The position numbers and the translations under genes were made by a program. Shown here piece by piece: positions 1,747 to 21,619 of a DNA stretch of 22,673 nt; position 1 is the first letter of the stretch; every line of letters starts with the position of its first letter. The stretch comes from Lunasporangiospora selenospora (lineage: Eukaryota; Mortierellomycota; Mortierellomycetes; Mortierellales; Mortierellaceae). The notes beneath the pieces are model-generated. The model worked only from the letters and a program-made list of their open reading frames with translations, had not been told where the DNA came from and searched no databases. The stretch is taken from positions 2,764-25,436 of the forward strand of contig JAABOA010000104.1 in the NCBI GenBank assembly GCA_015680635.1. Direction: 5' to 3'.

Positions 1747-3606
1747 TTACCCAAGGATATTCATATCACTCTTGATCTCCTTAGCCTTCTCCTCGGCTGC
1801 AACTTCGAGGCCTACTCGATGCACTGTCTTCAGGAACAGCTCCATACCCTCGACGGGAACGCTTGGCAAAATTCCATGACCCAGATTTGCGATATATCGT
1901 CCTGTCGAACCAAACTCACGCACCATCCGTGTAGCTGTTGCCACAATTGCCTCGTCACCTCCCAAGAGAACGCTTGGGTCCATGTTGCCTTGCAATGTCA
2001 CGCGTCCCTTGGTAACTGCCTTGGCAGCCGTTGGTGAATAAGTCCAGTCCAAGGAGACAGTCTCGTATCCGATCACAGCCAGCTTGTCGAGCGCATACCA
2101 TGAGCCCTTTGCAAATACGGTCATTGGTACACTCTCATCCCGGCCAAGAATCTCCTTCACCCGTGTGGCGATCTGCGCCAGGTAAGGCAGAGAGAACTGC
2201 TCAAACTCGTGAGGACCGAGCTCGCCGCCCCAGGACTCAAACACTTGCAACATCTACATTAGTTTAGGCGAGAAGACGAAAGTGGACAGGACAGAACAAA
2301 TAACAAAATTTCTTATTAGAACCTCAGTCACCAAAATACAAATCAGAAGCGGCTGAATTTGGTAAGCGACTACTGATCCATTACCTGAGCTCCGGCACGG
2401 ACTTGGCCGACGAGAAAATCAACGCACACGTCTGTAATGCGACGCAAGAGCTCGTGACTCTCCTGGGGATACTTGTACAACCACTCCTTTGCCTTTGACA
2501 AAGTCTTGCTTCCACCGCCTTCAATCATATAAGACTAAGACGATATTATTAATAAAGGAAATATTGACTAATAAACTTTTACAGCGTAAAGTCTAACCCA
2601 CAGCATATTCTGCTCCATTGGAAGATCCTTACCATCAAAGTCCAAGGGGCACCCACGAATCCAATGAGAGGGACACGTCCATTGAGAGCATGTCTGGTCA
2701 TTGTGATGGCATCAAAGACATACTGGAGCTCCTTGTTGACATCAACACTTTCCTTCAACTTTGTATGCACTTCTTCAGGTTTTACCAAAGGGTCTGGGAA
2801 GTGAGGACCCTTGCCAGGTACCATCTCAACCTCCATTCCCAATGCCTGTGGGATAACCAAGATGTCCGAGAAGATGATTGACGCGTCCAAAAGACCATCG
2901 TAACGATCAATTGGCTGCAAAGTCACCTTGGTCGCCAATTCGGGAGTGCGGCAGATCTTGAAAAAGTCGTTCATGACCCGCTCCTCTCGGAACTCTAAAG
3001 GAGGTAAAAGGATCGGGATAGAAAATATAGTTTGGTTGAGCGATCTACTTTGGAAAGAACAGTAACCATGCGACTCTGCCAAGGAGTGCCGAGGAGTAGT
3101 TTTCTCTGCACAGACTCGTTTCTTTCAGGTAGCCTGACAACTAGTACATAGTCCAGAGTCATAGCCAAGAAGCGAAATGAAGAAAGCAAAGATGCCATCC
3201 GCGACCGGCTAATATCCAAAGTTCCAATATTGACAAAAGCTCCTTCCGAGGTTTCCATAGAGTCCCATGATATCGTTTTTTTTTGGTTTTTTTTTTTTTT
3301 TTGCGCCATCAGGCTTTTGCAAATTAACTCGAAGGTTGAGATGCTCAATTTGATCTCAATGTGGTGGAATCGATTGCGTCTTTAGCCATCCCTTGACAAG
3401 AATATCTTCTCTGGTCATCATCTTAGCTGCTCATGATTCGATGACAAGTCAATGGAGTTGCTTCCTTCGTGTACTTGTGACCTACCAGGAAGGTAACGAC
3501 CAGCCTGACGCATGACCCAGACTGGTGCGCGTTCAGTCTTTTCGCCGCGGGCAGCCCTGAGGATCAGGTCATTCTTGAGGGGAGGGAAAGGTTTGGGGTC
3601 GGCCAT
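1747..3606 (-). CDS. HEM12: Uroporphyrinogen decarboxylase (heme biosynthesis)
   Basis: Four exons on the minus strand: 3486-3606, 2633-2994, 2385-2534 and 1747-2253, all with GT..AG introns, encode 379 residues (animal and yeast enzymes are about 360-367). The enzyme removes four acetate carboxyls from uroporphyrinogen III to give coproporphyrinogen III in the cytosol. The motif [19 protein letters not shown] spans the first splice junction and carries the two substrate-binding arginines (R33, R37). The catalytic aspartate is in [17 protein letters not shown] (D84), Tyr163 is in SYMIEGGG, Ser218 in QVFESWGG and the conserved His337 in YIANLGHG. All residues known to matter in the human enzyme are present, so it should be active. 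The first intron is long (491 nt) and holds homopolymer tracts. The start is the ATG giving [18 protein letters not shown], which matches family N-termini. Its start lies 289 bp downstream of the stop of the next gene on the same strand. Confidence 0.96.
3276..3302. repeat. T9-GG-T16 homopolymer tract inside the first intron of the heme gene
   Basis: On the plus strand nine T, two G and sixteen T follow one another; on the sense strand of the gene this is an A-rich tract in the middle of its long first intron. It is simple low-complexity sequence, prone to length errors in assembly, and has no coding effect. Confidence 0.85.
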
Positions 3607-3895: not shown

Positions 3896-6800
3896 CTATT
3901 TCCTCATCATGCCAAACACCACTGCAATCACCAAGCCCACACCAAGTCCGACAGCGCCTGAAATGACCAACGGGTTCATTGCGCTATCGGCTGGCGGCGA
4001 CGACGATGGCGACGACGACGGCAAGGAGGGTGGGCCGGCTTCGACCCGCTTCTCATTCTTTGAGGACACGGCCACGGACAAACGAATAAGTGGCCACCGG
4101 TTCCGATACGCCATCTGGACGGCATCCACAATATCAGAGTCTTGAAGGATCAGCACCTGGTCATTCTCTTCATCGCAATAGCTCATTGTCACTTCTGCAC
4201 TAAGCTCCAGTCCTCCGATTTTCTCTCGGACCTTATCATACAACTCCTTATACGACCGGGAGCTTGATGCAAATCGGTGTACCTGCCCACTCACGTTCTC
4301 CTTAAACTTGAATGTAAATTCAGTAGCGAACTCATCGCCTACAGCCGACATAGGCGGCATCGCTGCTGGTGAGCCCAAACGAACAGAGGACTCCATCACA
4401 CTACCTCCAGCACCATAATTGGCTTCTGAGTGTGGTGGCGCAAAGGACCTGACATCCGAAGCCGAAATTTCCGATCCAGTATCATCTCGCGCAAAAGTCG
4501 ATTCCCAGAACTTGTTCCAGACTGGACCCTGGCCCTCGGAGGCAGTATCGCCCTGAATTGAACCCATCTGATTCAGCATTGCCAATGAGACCTGCAAAAC
4601 ATCCACAAGGCCAGCCATCTGGTTATGGTCATCCACAACAGGCAAATGCAAATATCTGTTATCGTGCATCTTCTTGAGTGCTTCCAGAACGGTCATGCTC
4701 GATCGAACAGTGTCTGGGTGGGGCGTCATCACACGGATCACCGATGTCCTGTCTGGCTCCAATCCTGCAGCCATGACTCTCACCACAATATCCTAGTGAC
4801 ATAATAAAATTATCATTAGAAAGAGCCTAGTGGGCTTGCAGAAGGCTGATTTCGGGTGTTTGATCTAATAACATCCCATCTTACCTTAGTGGTGAAAATT
4901 CCAGCAATACGGCCATCCTCCATGATCAAGCTGGCAGTAGTGTGATACTGCTTCATCAACTTTGACGCCTCTCTCACGGAGGTTCTAGTTTGAATTTCAG
5001 CAACCCCATTGCTCTCATCCAGAATCGTGTTCAGGTCGGGCGAGGACATCTTTTCTCTCATCTAAATTTTGTTCAACCAAAAGAAAGAGTTAGCCTTTTA
5101 GCAATTGATTTATCCAGTTGCCATTTTTCTTTGCCAATAAATATGAGATAGAATAAACATTACCAGTTCAACATAGTTTTGAAGCTCTGGATTAGCAGGT
5201 GCAGCCCACTCTGACTGCATGCCTTCAAGAGCATCCACCAATTTTTTAGAAGACTGATGGGCCTTCTCCAGTTTCTCCAAGGCCTCGTACAAACACTTTG
5301 TAATGTCAAGCAATCCGACAACATCGCCTAAAATCACCCAGAAAACAACCAACTTGGCATTAGTTTCTCGTTTAACATTTTGACATACGCCACCTCCCTG
5401 GGACAATACAATACCATCAGAATTTAAACAGGGCAAGTGACGGAAACCGCCACTCACCATCCTGTTAAGCGCCTCAGTCGCGTTTGTGTCTGTGGTAACG
5501 CAGTATGGGTTCTATTCGTGAAAGATAATAGCACCAAAATGAGTCAATTAGCAGAGTTCGAGAGCAAAGTGAATGAAATTCATGATGTGATCCCGGAGTA
5601 TACATACCCTAGTCATGACCTGAGCTAGCAAGGTGTTGCGAATATCAAGTCCCTCGGAGACGACACGGAAAGCCAGATCTTTATCGGTCATAATACCTAG
5701 AACCATAGAAGATTCAGTATACGACATCCACTCCACGTCAGCAAACTCTTCATCGTGCATTTTCAAATGTTGTCTTGTACTAAAGACAATTCAAAGAAGA
5801 AAGGAGTACATACCGACAAGCGTCTGCTCTTGAGCGTCAATCACAAGAACAGCATCCGCCCTATTGTAGATGGTAGAATAGCCGAGTGGATGTTATGTCA
5901 AGGCATCGTAAACAGTCATCCTTCCAGAGAGAACTTTCACAATGATAGCATAGACTGCATCGATTCGGGCAAAGACAAGACGATAGACACACGACAACAA
6001 CCTCTCCTCCTCATATCCCCTCATAATCTCTGAGTACTCCACTTAAAAAGGAGGATGCTCAGCTGCTGTAGTAATTGGGTTGTGCTGGATTGATAGGAAT
6101 GTTGCCCAACGCTCTCTGACCAGGATTGACTGTTCGTTACCTCTTGGCAGCCATGATTCTATTTTAGAGAAAGAGAGACGGACTGGTGAGCACTTATTCC
6201 TTTCTTCAAGACCACTGTAATCTTCTGTCAGTGGGGCGCAAACATATCAGAGCGTCAGAGCTGAGCCGAGGAGAGCAGGACTGAACTAAGTTCGATGGCC
6301 CCTCCCACTCGTCCTCCATGTCTTCCCCTTGTTGCCAGGGCGGGAGAGGCAAGATCCGAATCTGCGCTGCCTCGGCACCGTGTCTCTTTCTCTCACTCTT
6401 ACCTTGCAGCATCTACGACCATGGCAGTGTCCGGGAGCGTGATTGCAGGGGATGGTCTAAGGGGATCCATATTACATGATACCAAAGAAGGTACAAGTGT
6501 TAAAAAGGAGACGAACAACAGTCATAGCCAAACAAAGGAACAAAAGGTTCCTTGGGGTCAGAGCGTGCATGGTCGTTTTTGCAGCTCTTTTCATTTTGTC
6601 TCCTGGACATCCCTGTCTCCGTTGGTCTCGCATCTGTGCCTGACGGAAAGCCTGAATGCGAGTCCCGTTGGGGGGAAGCAAAATATCAAGGAGAAAAATA
6701 TCCTTTCTGTTGGGTCGAAAAGCCCTTACCGGAGTGACCCGACGGTGCCTTGGACGGGGCGAGTGGACCCATGGGCCCTTGTGGCAGGATTCTTGCGGCC

Positions 6801-7430: not shown

Positions 7431-10400
7431 ATGGGAAGAAAGAAGCACGCCCTGAACGACGATTATGCATCGTCTTCAGACGAAGATCAGCCTCGAGAAA
7501 AATCCAGAGATGACTCTTTTGCAGGTATTACACTTGGTTGGATCGCGGTTGTGCTATAATATTTTATCTCTACAAACACTAATGATTTTCTCTCGTATCG
7601 ACCAGATCCTATGCACCAGAGGAAACGAAAGCATGCGAAAGATGAAGCCATTTACGGGTCTTTTTATGACTGGGGATCTGACGAGGACGAAGCTAAGCAG
7701 AAATCAAACAGGAGATCTGGGCGCTCGCGAGAATTTGCTTTCGTCTCGGCCTCCTCCTCCGCACCATCGTCCAAGGACCCAAAACATCCAAGAGTCAGGT
7801 CATCCCATGCTGATGAGTCTATGTCAGGATCTGATTCAGAGCGAGGCGATAATAACGATGATGACGATATTGGCGATAGTAGGAGGAACTCGGATGATAT
7901 GGATTCTGATGGTCGTGCAGAGGATAGGGATATCGAAATGGAAGAAGTTGGCGACGAGGATGAGGATGACGAGGATGAGGACGAACGGGCTGCCAGAAAA
8001 GCGCGCGAGGCTGCATTCAAAGAAAAACGCCAGCGGGAACAAGCAGAACTAGACACATATGAAGACAAACCCCAGAAACAACGCCCGCAGATGGGGATGG
8101 CTCACACCAACAATCTAATGCAACCACCTTTGCAACATCGGCCAAACCCTATAGCTTCAAGAAACTTTTCACCCGCCACATCGAGCCCTCAGTCAGACTC
8201 ACCCGTCACCACACCCGTCAAAGTTAGCAAGGATTATGGTTCTTTCTCTGCCAAGGGAAGTGGGTTCGGTCTCAAAATGCTGGAGAGGATGGGTTGGAAA
8301 AAGGGATATGGTTTGGGTTCTGGTGGCTCTGGTATTGTCGAGCCTATCGAGACGAAGCAAAGACCTGTCAAGATGGGTATCGGTTTTGGTGGATTCAAGG
8401 AAAAGACTGCCCAGACAGTTGCGGAGGAAAAGCGAAGGGGTCTGCCTGTTTCTTCAGATGAGGACGAGGAGCCTGAACCTCAGGCAAAGGGCAAAGGAAA
8501 GAATAAGGGAAAGGGAAAGGGTGATATTTCTACTCCAGCGGATGGATGGAAGCAAGCAGCAAGCCGCAAGAGTGCTAGGACAGGACCAAGGATTGAGTAC
8601 AAGACCGCAACAGAAATTCAGCAGGAGATTGAGTCTGGAGATTTGCCTATGGCCCCAGCGCAGACTCAGAAAATCATAGACATGACAGGCAAGACTGTAA
8701 GTATCCCTTTGAGTTACACGATGTAGAGGAAACTTAGACTCCCGGCTACCGATACTAACCGCTGATGCGTAACTCTCTTTTAGGTCCGAGAACTATCTTC
8801 TATGAGCCAAATCAGCTCGGCAATCGCCCGATCTGACGAGCGCTTCCCCGAGCTCCGACACAATCTCGAGCTAATGGCCGACATCTCAACTACAGACCTG
8901 GAGCAGCTTGCGAGAAAACAGAAAACAGACCATATTCGCCAACAAACGCTAGAGAAAGACGGTCAGAGAATTCAACATCTTGTCACCCAAGATGAAACGA
9001 ACATTGAGAGGCTCGTCAAAGCCATGTCGATTGCGGACCAATGTCAAAAAATAGCCAATGAGGTCAAAGAAGCCACCAGTGACACAACAGGTGTTCCCGC
9101 GGTTGAAATCAAGGAGGATTATCTGGCAATGGCATTCAAGGAACCATTCGATCTTTTTTCAGGACTTTATTTTGAGGAATACAAGCTTTACGAACTTGAC
9201 CAGATTGTCATGGCATCCATTCAGGAAAGCTTCAAACGCCTTCTCAAAGATTGGGACGTTCTTTCGACTCCAACACTCGGCGCTGGGCTGTTCAAAAAAT
9301 GGCAAAAGCTACTAAGAACTAGCCGCGTTGTCTATGAAGATACACGAGGCCCCGTGTATGATGCGCGCGACGGAGCCTCACTTTTCGGTGGACATAAGCA
9401 GCAACAGCACGAGGCAATGTCAGCATACGAATCGCTCCTGAACCAACACTGGCTGCCTAAGGTGCGATCAGCTCTTAATAATAGATGGGACCCCCGCGAC
9501 TGTGACTCTGTAATAGAGCTGCTGGAAGCCTGGGCCCCGCCTTTGCTGCCTATGTTTATCCAAGACAACATAGTGACACAACTGATCATGCCCAAGCTAC
9601 AAAAACAAGTAGATCAGTGGACACCACGCGATGAGTTGATGCTACATACGTGGATTCACCCATGGCTCCCTGTCCTTGGACAAGCCCGACTTGAACAAGA
9701 GCTCTTTGCTGAGGTGCGGAGAAAATTGGCTACGGGCCTTACTTCTTGGTCGGCTCTTGATCCTTCAGGGCTTCAGGTGCTTGACCCTTGGCGAGGGGTT
9801 TTTGATCCAACAGACATGGAGATATTGTTGCTAAAGTCTGTGCTACCCAAGCTGGTTGAGGCGCTTCAGGCGCTTGAAATCAATCCTCGAGACCAGCACC
9901 TGGAAATCCTTCAAGCAGTTTTGCCTTGGCACATTTTTTTCCCAAGCACAACATTCAGCTCCTTGCTTTTGAATGAGTTTTTCCCAAAGTGGCATCGTGT
10001 CCTCTATCTTTGGCTTACGCACCCAGAATCGTCGTCGAATACAGATCTACAGGTCTCGCAATGGTATCACTGGTGGAAAAGGCTTTTCCCGCAAGAGGTA
10101 CTACAAGAACCGGCTGTTGCAGCAGGATTCAGGCAGGGATTGGACATGATCAACCAGTTCATGGCTGGACTCGAGATAAGGTCGCCCGCCGAAGTTGGAT
10201 CNNNNNNNNNNGACTGCCAGCAAACGGCAATGGCGGCAATGGCGCCTCAAGCAATGAAACTCAATCTGTCTTGGGCCGACTCCAGACCAAGAAACATCTG
10301 GCAACATCTGTATCGTTCAAGGATCTTGTCCAAGATTACGCGACCCAAAACTCGCTTCTATTTGTCTTAACGCGTCAGATCCATGATCGGTCAGGTCGAC

Positions 10401-12700: not shown

Positions 12701-15415
12701 ATGAGGCTTTCATCAGGATGGGGCCGGAGGGTACTCTCGGCACTGGCAGTTTTATCAGCGACTGCAACAATTATTAATGCGGATGAACATTCGCACAAGG
12801 TAGACTGTGTCCTAGACATTGCTCTAATTTAATCATGCTGAATCAATTACTATCTGGACATCAATCCTCACCCACATCATCACAATCGGTCAATAGTACG
12901 AGGATGGAGAAGAAGTCATTGTGTGGGCTAACTCTGTTGGACCTATTAGGTAGAGAACACCTTGGCTAAGTCACCTATATCTGTATCTGGCAACCATGGT
13001 TCTCGTACGCTAAGGCGCCTTCCTGACATTTTTGTTTCTCTGTTATCTACTTTGCATGATATCAGCAACCGTCAGGAGACATATGAGTACTTCCAACTAC
13101 CTTATTGTAAGGGCGAAGGAAAGGTTGAACATCACCACGAGTCGTTAGGAGAAGCTCTCTTGGGCATGGAGCTTATTAATTCTGGGATTCCCATTAAGTT
13201 CGGTCGTAAGTACCCTAGGAGTCAATACTCGTCGATCATGGTTCAAATCGAGATAGGGCAGCACAATAACTAACTATCGATATTTTTCACCTCTTAAAAT
13301 GGGGAAACTTAGAGAGTGAAGATCCGCGTTCAATTTGCTCGCAGAGATTGCTATCGCCTCAGGATATCAAAACGTTCCAATATGCAATCTCTCATGACTA
13401 TTGGTTCCAGTTTTTTATTGACGACCTTCCCGTCTGGGGTAAGTAGATATCTTTGTTGATTACCCTGGATGCTAGCAACTGGCCTCTTTCTGAATACATT
13501 CACTCACCTGAAGTTCTTCTAATTATGATGCCCTCTTTAATAAATACTAGGAATGGTCGGAAAGAAGGTACAGGACACAAATGCAGTTATGCTGTATACC
13601 CATCAACATTTTGAACTCAAGTACAATGGAAACCAAATCATCTCAGCTCAGGTCTCCACAAAGAAGCCTGTAACATTGGAAGGAACTGCAGGAGGAATGC
13701 ATATCGACTTTACTTTCTCAGTATCCTGGGAGGCAACGGATAAGGAGTTCAAGACTAGATTCGAGCGATATCTGGACTCGGACTTTTTTGAGAACAAGGT
13801 AGATAACAGATTAATGATATTGTTACAAGAATTGTCTCATGATCATGCCTAATTTCCCCATTTCCTCCGCCAATAGATCCACTGGTTCTCGATTTTCAAC
13901 TCTTTGATGATGGTTCTCTTTTTGACTGGATTTGTCAGCGCGATGTGGATCCGGTACCTCCGCAGAGATTTTGCGCGATATGATAAAGAGGCTGGATTGA
14001 GCGACTTTGTATGCCTTCACCCCCTTGTTATGGCAATTTTGTTGTAAACGCAGATTTGGTCCGCTGTCCGAGCTAGATGATTGTCTAAAATGATCTATTG
14101 CTCCTTAACTTACACTGTGGAAAATTGCTTAGGACCACGACCTAGGGGATGACTATGGCTGGAAACAAATCCATGGAGACGTGTTCCGACCCCCAGCAAA
14201 CCCCATGACGTTTGCTGCCTTCTTGGGCACAGGTTATCAACTCGCGTGGACATCGTTCTTTGTGATCCTGTATACAATTTTTGGACAGGAATGGACTGAG
14301 AGGGCAAGCATCATGACAGCAACGATTTTCATATATGCTTTTACCTCTTTGATTTCTGGATATACCAGTGCCAGTCAGTATGCGCAATATGGCGGACGTG
14401 AGTGGGTTCGGGCAATGTTCTTGACGGCAGTGTTTTGGCCAGGCTCTGTGGCTATAGTTACTGGCCTGACGAATTCGATCGCAATCTACTACAACAGCAC
14501 GCGCGCTATTCCTTTCGGAACTATGGTAAACCTCTTTCTACAACACGCTTTTCACAATTTATATAGAGTGTATTAGACTCTGGACACGTTTTACTAACAT
14601 CTGCTCCTCTGCTATGATTTTTGTCTTTTCCAGATTGCACTGTTGGCTATCTGGCTGTTCATTGTCCTTCCGGTATGTCTGGTCGATTGCTCAATGCGAA
14701 CTCGGATTTTGTTTCTACAGCACCAACGCTCTGCTAATTTGCTTCCGTTATATTGACCCTTCAATGAAATAGTTAACATTTGTGGGAACGATTATGGGCA
14801 AAAACTGGGCTGGCAAGGCTGACTTTCCATGCAGAGTGCATCCCATCCCACGACCAATCCCAGAAAAGATTTGGTACGCTGAGCCAATTGTGGTGATCGG
14901 ACTGGGAGGAATCCTACCATTCGCATCCATCTTTATCGAGATCTACTTCCTGTTTACATCATTTTGGAACTACAAAGTGTATTATGTATATGGTTTTGGT
15001 CTGCTGGTCTTTATGATTGTGATGCTGGTAACAGTATCTGTGACTGTGGTGAGTACGTATTTTGTTATCAATACAGAAGACTATCGGTGGCATTGGATGA
15101 GTTTGGCCACATGTGGATCGACCGCGGCCTATGTCTATATCTATTCAGTTTACTACTTCATGCAGAAGACAAAGTAAGTTCCTTGACTCAGTCTCCATAT
15201 TATGAAAGGGTCATTGTGCAATCTCCTAACATTTCTCTCTCGTTTATTAACTCTCAATGCCATACATTAGGATGTATGGGCTCTTCCAGACAAGCTTCTA
15301 CTTTGGAAATACTGCCCTGGCGTGTATGGCTATCTTCTTAATGCTTGGGTCTGTAGGACACTTTGCAGCCAACAAGTTCATAGTGCGGATATATCGAAAC
15401 GTCAAGCTGGACTAG
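12701..15415 (+). CDS. TM9SF3: Nonaspanin, transmembrane 9 superfamily member 3 type
   Basis: Ten exons (12701-12799, 12897-12949, 13066-13205, 13313-13438, 13551-13798, 13877-14008, 14133-14525, 14634-14672, 14773-15173, 15271-15415) join in frame to 591 residues, close to the 589 of human TM9SF3. A signal peptide (about 1-27) is followed by a lumenal domain with [17 protein letters not shown] and [12 protein letters not shown]-like motifs, then nine membrane segments starting at [19 protein letters not shown] (from 223). Further family landmarks are [56 protein letters not shown] and NTEDYRWHW. The C-terminal KLD fits the KXD/E signal by which nonaspanins bind COPI and stay in the Golgi. 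Nonaspanins act in sorting membrane proteins with glycine-rich transmembrane segments and in endosome/Golgi trafficking. The exon 3 to 4 junction was chosen with the GTAAGT donor (FGQSEDP); a GTCGTA donor four bases earlier is a weaker alternative. Exon 8 has only 39 nt. Confidence 0.96.
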
Positions 15416-17447: not shown

Positions 17448-19496
17448 ATGTCAGCGTCGATGAAAGGCTGTCGAACATACTTGAGAGGGCTAGATCAAGC
17501 TCAGAGAAGATCTTACAAAAGTCAGTACGGAGAGCGTGGTAATGGGATTGCCATTTGGCCGACGCTTTGGCTTGCTGTATGTTATATCATGACAACATCT
17601 CTGGTGCTGGCAGCGGCCGCCACAGTCCAATCAGGGAACCCAGATATTCAGCTTGAGCCAAGAGTCGTCCCACTACTGCCACCCCCACCGCCAACTCTAG
17701 GAAGGAGAGCACAACATCAACAAAACGACGTCGCATCACTGCCTCGGTTATCTCAACATCCACTTGCGTGGAGTCCTCAGCAGCATGCTAAATGGGGGAT
17801 CCCCTGCTCAAGTCAGCCATTACAACAGCTACCACAAGAGCATTACATGCATAAGCGAGATGCATCGGGCAATTTTGTTCCTGAGGCCAATGGAGTGGAC
17901 CTGAGACCTCGTGAAATTCACAACATTTCGATGCCGCTCTCAGCCTTTCAGGCAAAGGCCGTGGTGAATAGCACAGACATGCTTTGTAACGGAAGAGCCG
18001 ACATCTGTGATTTGCGTTACAACCAAGTGGTAGGTTTAGCAAACGTTTATTACAGTCTTCATCTCATCAGCCAAGCATAGTTTTGCTTACCCAACCAATA
18101 ACACTTTTTCTCTCCCTCATGAATTAGACGTACCCAGGTACACACAACAGCGCCTCTTACGACCTTGAATACGACTGCCAACTGGCAACAAAAACATGCC
18201 TCCAAAAGACAACCGTCTGCACTCAACAAGCACAAAACTGTACAAAAGGCTGGGAGGTCCGCTGCACAAAGATCACGAACACCTGCACCAAGAACCTACC
18301 AAGTTGGCTCCATTGGCTCTGCGGAGCATTCTCCTCTGTTTGTGAATCTACTGAGCAGTTCTGTTTGGGCTGGGAGGAAATTTGTACAAGCAGCCTGGAC
18401 ATCTGCACACTCTGGGGTTCTGCCTGCTTGGATGTCGTTCCTGATTGGGCTATTAAGTGTCTATGGGAAAACCAACCTGGATATCCTATCGCTCGACAAC
18501 TTCAGGATGGTAAGTCAAGAGTAAATAATGCCTATATACCTGCCTACTCCAAAACATTCTCGCTCACTGCTGTAATTACATGAAAATACTCTAGGCATCC
18601 GGTTCTTAGATCTGGGAACGTGTTTAACAAACAATGACACTCAAGTCGTAATGTGCCATGGCCAGGGATTAATCAGGGCTTTGGGCGTATCACTTGACTC
18701 TATACTTCAACAAATCTTACAGTTCATGCTGGCCAACCCCAATGAAGTACTCACAATCGAGTTCAACGAGACAGATGGAGACATTCCGATATTATCGCGG
18801 ATGATCGTATCCAAGATTCTTCAATATTTTACACTTTCAACAGGCGAACTAATGTTCTGGTCACGGAAAAGTATTTCAGATCCCTGGCCGACGTTGCGGG
18901 ATATGATTCTGGCAAACAAGAGGATCATGCTCTTCTTTGGAGATACGTATGACCCAATTCCCGATCCGAAACCAGGCTGGGCCAACCAAAAGAATCTTTG
19001 GAAACAGGATGGGTTTACATACACGAGCCAAGACTCAATGCCTAGAGAACTGAACAAGACCTATTATGATTGGTGTGCACAGGGGCCACCGACTGATGGA
19101 TCTTATGTCAGATGGCAGCAAATTGACATCAAGTAAGTCTTAAAATACACTGAATTTAGCTTCAAAGTCTACCTATTAACAACAAATCTCTTGGTCCTCC
19201 TACATGTTCTAACGACCTTGTTTTAATTTCATCGTAGTATGGCCATCTTAGAGGATGACATTATCAACGAGATCAAACAGGGCAGAATCCCACAACTGTG
19301 TATCGAGCCCCTGGCAATAGAGACGAATGGAGCCTTCCTTGATGCAATCGGAAACTACTGTTATAAGCGATGGCCCTACTGGTTCCGAGTTCGCGTAAAC
19401 AATTACTGGCATGGAAATGTCTTCAAGGTAGCCAGTCTTTTTAATGATTGGAACGTTGCCCGAGTGCGTGCAGGTGACTCCATTACGCCATATTAG
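17448..19496 (+). CDS. PLC-like phosphodiesterase with N-terminal membrane/signal segment and cysteine-array insert
   Basis: Four exons (17448-18029, 18128-18509, 18595-19132, 19238-19496) give 586 residues from the chosen ATG. A hydrophobic segment at about 34-58 (IWPTLWLAVCYIMTTSLVLA) is a signal peptide or type II anchor; a Pro- and Gln-rich linker with N-glycosylation sites follows. The catalytic domain begins NQVTYPGTHNSASYDL (His200), continues GIRFLDLGTC (322-331) and CHG (His343), and has LTIEFNETDGD. This order matches the PI-PLC X-like fold of fungal PLC-like phosphodiesterases, which cleave phosphodiester head groups; the substrate cannot be read. Between the first and second motif sits a 95-residue insert with 13 cysteines. 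The start is uncertain: the frame stays open up to an ATG at 17073 (125 more residues without family features), and ATG 17460 is also possible. Product probably acts outside the cell or in the secretory lumen. Confidence 0.8.
18176..18460 (+). other. Heptad-spaced cysteine array within the PLC-like protein
   Basis: Thirteen cysteines fall at residues 211, 218, 225, 232, 240, 247, 259, 266, 273, 280, 287, 294 and 305. Nine of the twelve spacings are exactly seven, one is eight, and the spacing of twelve (248-258, containing NLPSWLHWL) splits the first twelve into six and six. Both halves contain a GWE segment (GWEVRC and GWEEIC). Seven residues are two helical turns, so each half would show its cysteines on one face of a helix. 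The reading frame was checked base by base and joins correctly to catalytic motifs on both sides. Confidence 0.85.
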
Positions 19497-19516: not shown

Positions 19517-20120
19517 AAATTGGATAAGCAATGAGACCAACAAGGTTTGGTGGCAATTTCCACCATCAGCAATTGTTAGGTCGGGTTGGAGATTACTGTT
19601 TGAAGCTGGACAGAGTGTAGAAGATGGCATGAAAGTTTCTGCAACACTAAGGAGCTTTATGGACTGGATCTCTTAAGTTTGCTCTTGAACATTCGCTCTG
19701 GCTTGAGCGACAATAGGCAGGGTCCTTGGGTACAAAGCATGATGCATGGCCGATATTTTTTATGCTTGAACAGCTAGGCTCACTGCTCCGCCCATATCAA
19801 CGAAGTTCTCTGTGTTTCTTTAATCCGCTTCGGCGTACCTACCCGCTCACTTCCTCCTCTCTTCTCTCCCATCATACTCCACTCTTTCGCACATTTAATC
19901 ATCACAACCCATCCACAATCCTTAAAATTTCTTTACCATACCCATCAGTAGCATTTGCATTCTTTCTGTCTTTCCTTGCATCTCCAGAGCAATCATCATT
20001 CCTGGACCTCATCAGGGTCCCACATCGCCAAATCTAGACAGAACATACTTTTAGAATTGGTAGCGCACTAGCGAGATACCAGCTAACATCATCAAAGAAA
20101 CATCCTATAATCCCTTCAAC
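19517..20120 (+). promoter_or_regulatory. Intergenic region and pyrimidine-rich leader of the LEA_2 gene
   Basis: This 600-bp stretch holds no gene I can support. Its second half, about 19840-19990, is strongly C/T-rich with CTCTTCTCTCCC-type runs, as before the HUT1-type gene, and turns A-rich near the ATG (20041-20120). It most likely contains the core promoter and 5' UTR of the gene at 20121. Confidence 0.4.
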
Positions 20121-21619
20121 ATGGCACGGAGGGGTAGTCGTCATCAAGCCTACCCTATGGACGACTATCCACGCTCTCAGCACAAAGAACAAAGTCGTAA
20201 TAACAGTTTCGACGAAAGGAGAGACTCCTATGATTCATATGAGCCAGACTACCACCAGCACCATCGAGCAGAGCATGAAGTTGATATCCACAGCAACCAC
20301 GGAAGCATCACACGGATAAAGGATGAGCGACCCATACGAAAATGGGATGCACTCTTTCCATGTATCAAATCTCGCTTGGGTCGGACAGCTGCGTGCATCG
20401 GCCTGGGGATTCTTATCGGAGTCATCATCTTTGTTATGGTTCTGTATACTGTTTTTTCGATACCAAAGGTCGAATTCCAGAACCTGGTCGGCTCTCCTGA
20501 ATTTACGTTCAACGACGGCAATACGACATTGGGCGTCCACCTTGTTGCCAACTTAACAGTCAACAACCCAAACCCAATTGGAGTTTACTTCGAGCTGCTG
20601 AATATCACGGTAGGTTGCCTTCTCCCTCTCTCCTTCGCAAGGCACTTTTCTCTGCCACGTTTACCATCATCAACACCATGAGCCCACCACGACAGCCACG
20701 ATAGCGCCACGATAGCCTCCATAACCACAAAGAGTTTCGGGAGCAGCGTCCCGCAATGAAATCGAAGGAACAGGGGCGGGAACCAAACAAGTTGTGAAAA
20801 CCCCCGAAAGGCTCCTCCCCCTCAAAATCATCGGAACTGGAAGTGCGCCACTGTGTCACATACAATAAGGCAACAGAGGGTCGACAGCCACTAAATGTGC
20901 TCTAGAGCCTTTCTCTTTGCATGTCATGTCTGAGCGTGCAGATGCCTCAGAGTGATGACCAAAACACCATTGAAGCTATTGTCGATGAGGAGTTTGGAGG
21001 TCATTGGTGTATGAACAAGCCAGGGAAAAGCACTACAACACACTAGAGTTACCTCTCCCCAGCACTGAAATTGAAAGCGAGCGTTCCTGGCATAGACTAA
21101 CGTGATAACGACCCATCTAGGCTTACTATCCGACATATGCACCACCAATCGGAGGCGGCAATATTACCAATACGGACTTTCCATCAAAGTATGTCCAGAC
21201 CATCCAGTTCCCAGTATGGGCAAGATACGATAAAAGTCAGGATCCGGGATTCGGTTTGCTTAAAGACCTTTTTTCAAAGTGTGGCAAGCTCGGCACTGTT
21301 GTTGGCTTCAAGGACAGCGAGTTTACAATGAACTTCGACTTGAATATTCGGATGCGAATATTGAGTTTCAACCTCAGTCCTGATATCAAGAGGTTCCCCG
21401 TTGATATCGATTGCCCGTTAAATGTAAGCTCTACTATTGACGCCATAACAGACAGGTACCTTCTGCAAAATTTTGACGCTAATGTCGATTGTCTTGACGA
21501 AACAGCTTATTGATTTAGCGAAAGGACTTGTCCCTGGAGGTGGCGGGGATGGATCATGGTGGAATAAGATCCCTGGCGGAGTTGTGGACTGGATTGGCTT
21601 GATTCCAGGCTTTCCTTGA
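20121..21619 (+). CDS. Single-pass membrane protein with LEA_2 (NDR1/HIN1-like) domain
   Basis: Three exons (20121-20609, 21121-21423, 21506-21619) joined in phase 0 encode 301 residues. Residues 1-89 are hydrophilic, rich in Arg, Asp, Tyr, Ser and His and probably cytoplasmic. One membrane segment (90-113, ACIGLGILIGVIIFVMVLYT) is followed by an outer domain: FTFNDGNTTLGVHLVANLTV, NNPNPIGVYFELLNIT, joined to AYYPTYAPPIGGGNITNTDF, then beta-rich sequence to DIDCPLN and a Gly/Trp-rich tail ending IPGFP. The NPNPIGVYFELLNIT motif is typical of the LEA_2/WHy fold, seen in plant NDR1-like and fungal membrane proteins whose role is largely unknown. Several N-glycosylation sites in the outer part agree with a type II topology. 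The first intron is long (511 nt). I am confident of the fold, less of any function. Confidence 0.8.
20610..21120 (+). other. 511-nt first intron of the LEA_2 gene
   Basis: The donor is GTAGGT and the acceptor CATCTAG. The intron is about five times longer than most in this window. It holds a short direct repeat of CCACGATAGC-like units (about 20698-20719) and no open frame that extends the protein on either side. No nested gene is visible on the opposite strand. Confidence 0.6.

Follow-up and report, generated by a model that had tools for sequence, protein, structure and literature searches.

The window analysed here is a 22,673-nucleotide stretch of contig JAABOA010000104.1 of the fungus Lunasporangiospora selenospora (Mortierellomycota). 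Pfam identifies the following ordinary neighbours upstream of the gene considered below:

376-1440: UAA nucleotide-sugar transporter
1747-3124: uroporphyrinogen decarboxylase
3896-4792: CBS-PB1 protein
7560-10199: TIP_N/G-patch and GCFC splicing-factor pieces
14133-15177: EMP70

The open reading frame of the GCFC-domain gene contains an assembly gap, a run of 10 N at positions 10202-10211. The gene considered here, BGW38_000170, carries a long cysteine-rich insert, and its features are:

17448..19496, + strand: four-exon PLC-like phosphodiesterase gene (GT-AG introns, spliced frame; 586 aa)
17547..17627, + strand: hydrophobic segment near the N-terminus, aa 34-60 (seen by eye in the translated sequence)
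18143..18145, + strand: first catalytic histidine, His200 in THNS, at the end of the first barrel strand (alignment, model)
18176..18286, + strand: arm 1 of the predicted hairpin, with Cys 211, 218, 225, 232, 240 and 247 (sequence; predicted helix P0001 78-117, aa 211-250)
18287..18319, + strand: tip joining the two arms, aa 248-258, containing Pro252 and His256 (predicted helix break P0001 118-119)
18320..18427, + strand: arm 2 of the predicted hairpin, with Cys 259, 266, 273, 280, 287 and 294 (sequence; predicted helix P0001 120-161, aa 253-294)
18458..18466, + strand: Cys305-Leu-Trp307, Trp307 aligning with Trp47 in helix B of Bacillus PI-PLC (pairwise and profile alignment)
18621..18623, + strand: Cys331, co-occurring exactly with Cys305 (94 aligned rows)
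18657..18659, + strand: second catalytic histidine, His343 (H in 93 of 94 aligned rows)

Splicing of exons 17448-18029, 18128-18509, 18595-19132 and 19238-19496 across three GT-AG introns yields the 586-aa protein. The public protein (P0001), annotated as a hypothetical protein, begins at Met134; our reading is longer at the N-terminus and 100% identical to it over residues 175-586. The hydrophobic stretch at aa 34-60, absent from the public gene model, is a probable signal peptide or signal anchor, and from this stretch, recognised by eye, we infer that the PLC-like enzyme is probably secreted. Of the 23 Mortierellomycota-group rows (a row being one protein of our set of relatives), 20 have a KR pair ahead of the domain, which we take to be a possible Kex2 site, though chance may contribute to this count; dibasic pairs are also common in Glomeromycota, and are mostly missing upstream of the domain in chytrids and Zoopagales. 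The cysteine-rich segment is contained in a single uninterrupted exon, supported by the assembly sequence and the reading frame.

Thirteen cysteines fall within residues 211-305 (211, 218, 225, 232, 240, 247, 259, 266, 273, 280, 287, 294 and 305), with successive spacings of 7, 7, 7, 8, 7, 12, 7, 7, 7, 7, 7 and 11. An earlier note on this DNA had described thirteen cysteines with nine of twelve spacings equal to seven, at 18176-18460, between His200 and the FLDL motif, and our recount agrees with it exactly on number, coordinates and position. When both end cysteines were held fixed and the 11 others placed at random, none of 200,000 trials reached nine sevens, the maximum being six. Three residues after Cys 259, 273 and 287, arm 2 carries aromatic residues. 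The same note had seen in the GWE segment of both halves a hint of internal duplication, which we abandoned: permutation gave p values of 0.07 (halves in order), 0.25 (C4 versus C9, cysteines being numbered in order along the ladder) and 0.23 (shift of five); across all seven tests the smallest value was 0.04, uncorrected, for alternate heptads of arm 2. At the DNA level, the region 18100-18540 contains no tandem repeat.

The predicted fold is a PI-PLC-type TIM barrel, which places the protein in the PI-PLC (X-domain-like) superfamily, and the two catalytic histidines of that superfamily are found as His200 and His343, aligned with those of the Bacillus enzyme. Three protein searches returned 191 proteins, P0001 among them, of which 94 entered the barrel alignment (97 were dropped for length or a missing motif). 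The position of His200 is a histidine in 94/94 rows; it stands at the end of a strand, 63-67 of P0001, in the model, and its THNS motif aligns with GTHDS of Bacillus PI-PLC. The score for Pfam PF00388 is 19.9 bits, below the gathering score of 23.1, which makes the protein a distant relative and, by that rule, not a member of PF00388. Relatives with precomputed Pfam labels fall in PF26146 and PF26178, fungal and bacterial PLC-like phosphodiesterases, with which the window protein shares the barrel, the catalytic His and both cysteines of the CNG...C start (92 of 94 rows); unlike it, most of these relatives have a cysteine-free insert (115 of the 164 located).

The active site differs from that of the metal-independent bacterial PI-PLCs in that the catalytic Arg69 of the Bacillus enzyme is replaced by Gly329. 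All 17 aligned Mortierellomycota rows have Gly at this position, and the other 28 rows of the ladder group have Asp (27) or Glu (1); judged from the alignment, this is a lineage-wide active-site change at residue 329 in Mortierellomycota. Calcium-dependent PLCs of the eukaryotic type have acidic ligands for the metal, which follow strand 2 or lie on a later strand (E341, D343 and E390 in PLC-delta1); this set is incomplete here. In the window protein Asp327 and Glu371 are present, with Gly329 in place of the second acid. An Asp at the Arg69 position would presumably suit a calcium-dependent enzyme.

The bacterial-PI-PLC-like barrel carries the insert in its first beta-alpha loop, between the first catalytic His and Trp307. 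On its C-terminal side, IKCLWENQPGY of the window protein aligns with IKQVWGMTQEY of Bacillus PI-PLC (chain residues 43-53); in the Bacillus chain, the blocks corresponding to the two sides of the ladder are separated by just two residues (41-42). Trp47 belongs to helix B, a membrane-inserting element of Bacillus PI-PLC (PMC9572076), so that a hairpin inserted at the start of the helix B counterpart would most likely form a stiff arm by the active-site mouth.

We then located the insert in the relatives by its flanking motifs alone, with no cysteine pattern used, which succeeded for 164 of the 191. These inserts contain 0 (115 inserts), 13 (31), 5 (7), 3 (5) or 1 (3) cysteines, with 11, 10 and 7 found once each. 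From the first His motif to DGxR, 112 of the 115 cysteine-free inserts span 29-33 letters, in line with the claim that a short segment is normal at this site. Among the 27 rows not located by motifs, four (P0018, P0029, P0031 and P0101) also have 13 cysteines, bringing the full ladder to 35 proteins, P0001 included, in three fungal phyla: 19 in the Mortierellomycota group (including P0001 and P0016), 7 in Glomeromycota and 9 in Zoopagales. Rows were assigned to groups by record names, and lineages were looked up for four species.

The spacing pattern is closely similar in all 31 located 13-cysteine rows. The C2-C3, C3-C4, C5-C6, C7-C8, C9-C10 and C10-C11 spacings are 7 and the C4-C5 spacing is 8 in 31/31; C1-C2 is 7 in 26 and 6 in 5, C8-C9 is 7 in 29 and 8 in 2, and C11-C12 is 8 in 8 rows and 7 in the other 23. 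Across the tip, C6-C7 is 12 in 29 of these rows, 11 in one and 19 in another, and 15 in P0101. Outside the cysteines, the arms of P0001 are 13-27% identical (7/55 to 13/49) to those of eight chosen rows of other phyla. As far as these comparisons go, the cysteine framework is conserved and the other arm residues are free.

Outside this set of relatives, the ladder segment gave three weak matches to PDB sequences (best E 0.38), NCBIfam matched none of five proteins, and 3 pattern matches on viral contigs included no relative. Among 52 barrel-pattern matches on bacterial and archaeal genome contigs no relative was found either, by a scan so insensitive that it missed known bacterial relatives. 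A description of the ladder was absent from the titles and abstract openings listed by our literature search, in a collection with few of the subscription journals. A 'PLC-like' effector candidate of Rhizophagus clarus was set aside, as it has a GDPD domain and hence belongs to another family (PMC4746824).

In the AlphaFold model, the insert forms two long helices (aa 211-250 and 253-294) with a tight turn between them. Two cysteines seven residues apart on the same helix are too distant to bond together (rise of ~10.5 Å), so that their partner has to be the other arm, another molecule or a metal. The reading that we consider very likely is an antiparallel helical hairpin zipped by disulfides: the insert would form a single alpha-helical hairpin with a cysteine at every second turn on the sides that face each other, and the twelve ladder cysteines would form six nested intramolecular disulfides (247-259, 240-266, 232-273, 225-280, 218-287 and 211-294). 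In idealised supercoiled antiparallel helices with 9.5 Å between axes, all six CB-CB distances can be 3.8 Å; with straight helices, they drift to 7.4 Å at the ends. Note that, at 8.0 Å between axes, the same simple geometry accommodates the 8-residue step with no bulge and thus does not discriminate; a pi-bulge at this step is a guess. Two features of the models count against the hairpin rungs: the helix confidence of the six-rung model is only 64-75 (pLDDT), and in the model of a five-cysteine chytrid relative (mean pLDDT 90.2; helices 40-45 and 51-64, turn 46-50) Cys47 sits in the turn, outside the helices. Prolines occur in the arms of 9/9 Zoopagales, 1/7 Glomeromycota and 0/19 Mortierellomycota-group rows, and where they do the helices have to be kinked or shorter. 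The two antiparallel helices with six cysteine pairs proposed in the earlier note are supported rather than proven, by the predicted helices, by short relatives that are readable with balanced arms and by the joint loss of C6 and C7 in one protein (see below).

Foldseek returned weak matches to WXG100-type hairpins (e.g. 3gvm_B, TM by target 0.70, E 1.4), of a kind that would suit any helical hairpin; the hairpin alone may match a known fold. Helical hairpins held by disulfides are known from CHCH proteins (twin CX9C) and alpha-hairpinins (CX3C), both with antiparallel helices and nested disulfides in two rungs, and natural disulfide-stapled helical hairpins usually have two rungs. Compared with these, the spacing here is 7 and the rungs number up to six; no spacing of 10, as in twin CX9C, occurs among the 7, 8, 12 and 11 observed. 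In copper storage proteins (Csp), cysteines, mostly in CX3C pairs, line a four-helix bundle; the present insert has two predicted helices and no spacing of 4. We know of no longer covalently zipped helical hairpin than one of six rungs.

A close parallel is the V-shape helix and 'disulfide zipper' of yeast carboxypeptidase Y; in this secretory-pathway hydrolase, the nested disulfides C217-C240 and C224-C233, with a spacing of seven in each helix, bridge two helices inserted over its active site (PMC6609556). The spacing and the predicted hairpin of the window protein agree with it, the disulfides here being predicted from the pattern; the carboxypeptidase zipper differs in having two rungs instead of six and an alpha/beta-hydrolase fold, and no sequence relation is claimed. 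With its PI-PLC-type barrel, the window protein is not a serine carboxypeptidase. The remark in the earlier note that it knew of no described domain with this pattern therefore needs qualifying, as a two-rung version of the same spacing is already described (PMC6609556).

Shorter inserts also bear on the pairing. Those with five cysteines, found in three chytrid genera, in Geosiphon and in a second Ambispora paralogue (two species), are readable as 2+2+1 in 7/7 rows. The four chytrid inserts share the spacings 7, 7, 7 and 11, all ladder steps being equal, so that their split into arms is taken from the structure model. The three-cysteine inserts (two Syncephalis fuscata proteins and three other rows) are readable as 1+1+1, with irregular spacings that allow other pairings. 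Inserts readable as 1, 2, 5 and 6 rungs are thus observed. In the 11-cysteine insert of Diversispora P0090, C6 is replaced by Phe and C7 by Ser (MAFFT with Gigaspora P0028), and these two cysteines, lost together, are exactly the predicted tip partners. Length changes are less regular: C2-C3 is 9 in P0090, with two extra residues and nothing opposite, and 8 in P0101, likewise unmatched. In Ambispora C4-C5 and C8-C9 are both 8 (2/2 rows), which by sequence is the sole clean case of a matched insertion. A compensation between C1-C2 = 6 and C11-C12 = 8 in Syncephalis was considered and dropped, as other Zoopagales rows have 7 and 8.

Three unbalanced ladders occur in two proteins: P0019 (2+4+1) and P0086, with 6+3+1 in domain 1 and 3+6+1 in domain 2. 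Taken as they stand, these count against the hairpin. All three ladders lack blocks that close relatives keep, which suggests gene-model errors; on this comparison they are probably just that. P0086, from Syncephalis pseudoplumigaleata, has 694 residues and two tandem PLC-like domains, both with incomplete ladders. In a barrel tree of 39 rows with shortened inserts, six cysteine-number labels require 8 changes, against a possible minimum of 5; the four chytrid rows form one clade (100/99), and the five-cysteine Glomeromycota and three-cysteine Syncephalis rows are nested among 13-cysteine relatives. Overall, on the evidence of the alignments and the tree, the insert is widely conserved and repeatedly resized. 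That rungs are gained and lost pairwise, evolution thereby setting the arm length and with it the distance of the active site from the membrane or wall, is a tentative extension that we hold to be doubtful.

The thirteenth cysteine behaves differently. Of the 94 aligned rows, 45 have Cys305 together with Cys331 and 49 have neither, with no mixed case; Cys522 occurs in 43/45 rows with this pair and 0/49 without, and a cysteine four residues after Cys342 (CHxxC) in 47/49 rows without it and 0/45 with it. In the 39-row tree, the seven rows with neither ladder nor Cys305 pair form one side of a branch, so that a single deep branch, rather than many independent events, seems to account for the split. 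Cys305, 331, 342 and 522 thus form a separate set of barrel cysteines; among the pairings possible within it, Cys305-Cys331 is the simplest guess. Assigning Cys305 to this set leaves an even twelve for the ladder. The earlier suggestion that Cys305 pairs elsewhere is accordingly strengthened, short of proof, by its tracking of Cys331 in 94/94 rows. Two sea-anemone-type relatives, P0103 (Actinia tenebrosa) and P0106, have one cysteine at the Cys305 position and no ladder, from which Cys305 may predate the hairpin.

Aromatic residues recur at fixed rungs of arm 2. Three residues after C7, C9 and C11, Phe, Trp and Trp are found in 19/19 Mortierellomycota-group rows, and the same positions in Glomeromycota are Phe in 6/7, Trp in 7/7 and Trp in 7/7; Zoopagales have Trp after C7 in 7/9 and after C9 in 8/9, and an aromatic after C11 in 0/9, which counts against the overall reading. 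In arm 2, 89% of 164 seven-residue steps have a hydrophobic residue just before the next cysteine, and arm 1 is mostly polar, so that the arm would present one sticky side, compatible with docking, whether the partner is a membrane, a polymer of the wall or the barrel itself. At 35 residues of helix, the arm would measure ~50 Å; it would be hydrophobic along one of its helices and could help the probably secreted phosphodiesterase to dock on its substrate, a lipid or a wall component, or to orient towards it. Taken on its own, this docking role has, in our estimate, slightly less than an even chance of being correct.

The main competitor keeps the disulfide hairpin and drops the docking: the hairpin would only stabilise the first loop, or its length would drift neutrally. 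The repeated change in ladder length fits this (8 label changes against a possible minimum of 5), as does the retention of the catalytic His by relatives with shorter inserts, the binding role being our extrapolation. Set against it are the 8-residue step at C4-C5, kept in 31/31 rows across three phyla, and the recurrence of the aromatics, which suggests a selected surface; we regard it as a possible, though unlikely, account. Considered as a whole, the statement that the insert is a disulfide-zipped hairpin acting as a rigid docking arm appears likely to us, a judgement weighted to the hairpin and overlapping with the no-docking account, which shares it.

Other explanations part with the intramolecular disulfides. 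Two proteins could zip their arms into a dimer, or cross-link into the wall, and heptad-spaced cysteines on one helix face would also suit such an antiparallel zipper. The short tip, the break of the helix at the tip in the model and the equal number of cysteines per arm at varied lengths (P0019 and P0086 excepted) fit self-pairing instead, which makes intermolecular bonding improbable. The cysteines might otherwise stay reduced in a secreted metal-binding arm, each facing pair binding Cu(I) as a two-coordinate thiolate site or sharing Zn(II). Thirteen cysteines in strict geometry, a number reminiscent of the copper storage protein Csp1, and a single His (256) at the tip speak for it, but the protein looks secreted (hydrophobic N-terminus, KR pair), so that its cysteines would cross an oxidising compartment, and in carboxypeptidase Y nested pairs of the same spacing are disulfides (PMC6609556); we consider metal binding very improbable. 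Finally, the ladder could be an artefact of a wrong exon or frame, given that in the public models P0019 and P0022-P0025 the exon with the ladder is partly or wholly missing. With a complete in-frame 13-cysteine ladder in 35 rows, P0001 included, and a window frame that is open and identical to the public protein, the chance of this is negligible. In the five public models the omission apparently arises through false introns, and annotated databases under-report the ladder as a result.

With six rungs at a strict seven-residue step in three phyla, and with shorter relatives alongside, these inserts would form a series tracing the growth of a covalently locked helical arm, with a pairing predictable from sequence alone. 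Studies of oxidative folding and of rigid spacers would also find a natural test object in the ladder. An arm at the membrane-insertion site of bacterial PI-PLC would also give a testable view of how the phospholipase-like enzymes secreted by early-diverging fungi and by arbuscular mycorrhizal ones contact their substrate.

Downstream of the PLC-like gene, a gene at 20064-21513 encodes, by eye, a membrane helix and an LEA-2-like region; Pfam at E 0.001 gave no match for the two window open reading frames there. In Podila epigama, the public model P0027 joins a portion of the PLC-like barrel to a PF03168 protein. The PLC-like and PF03168 genes are probably neighbours in Podila epigama too, P0027 being a fusion error.
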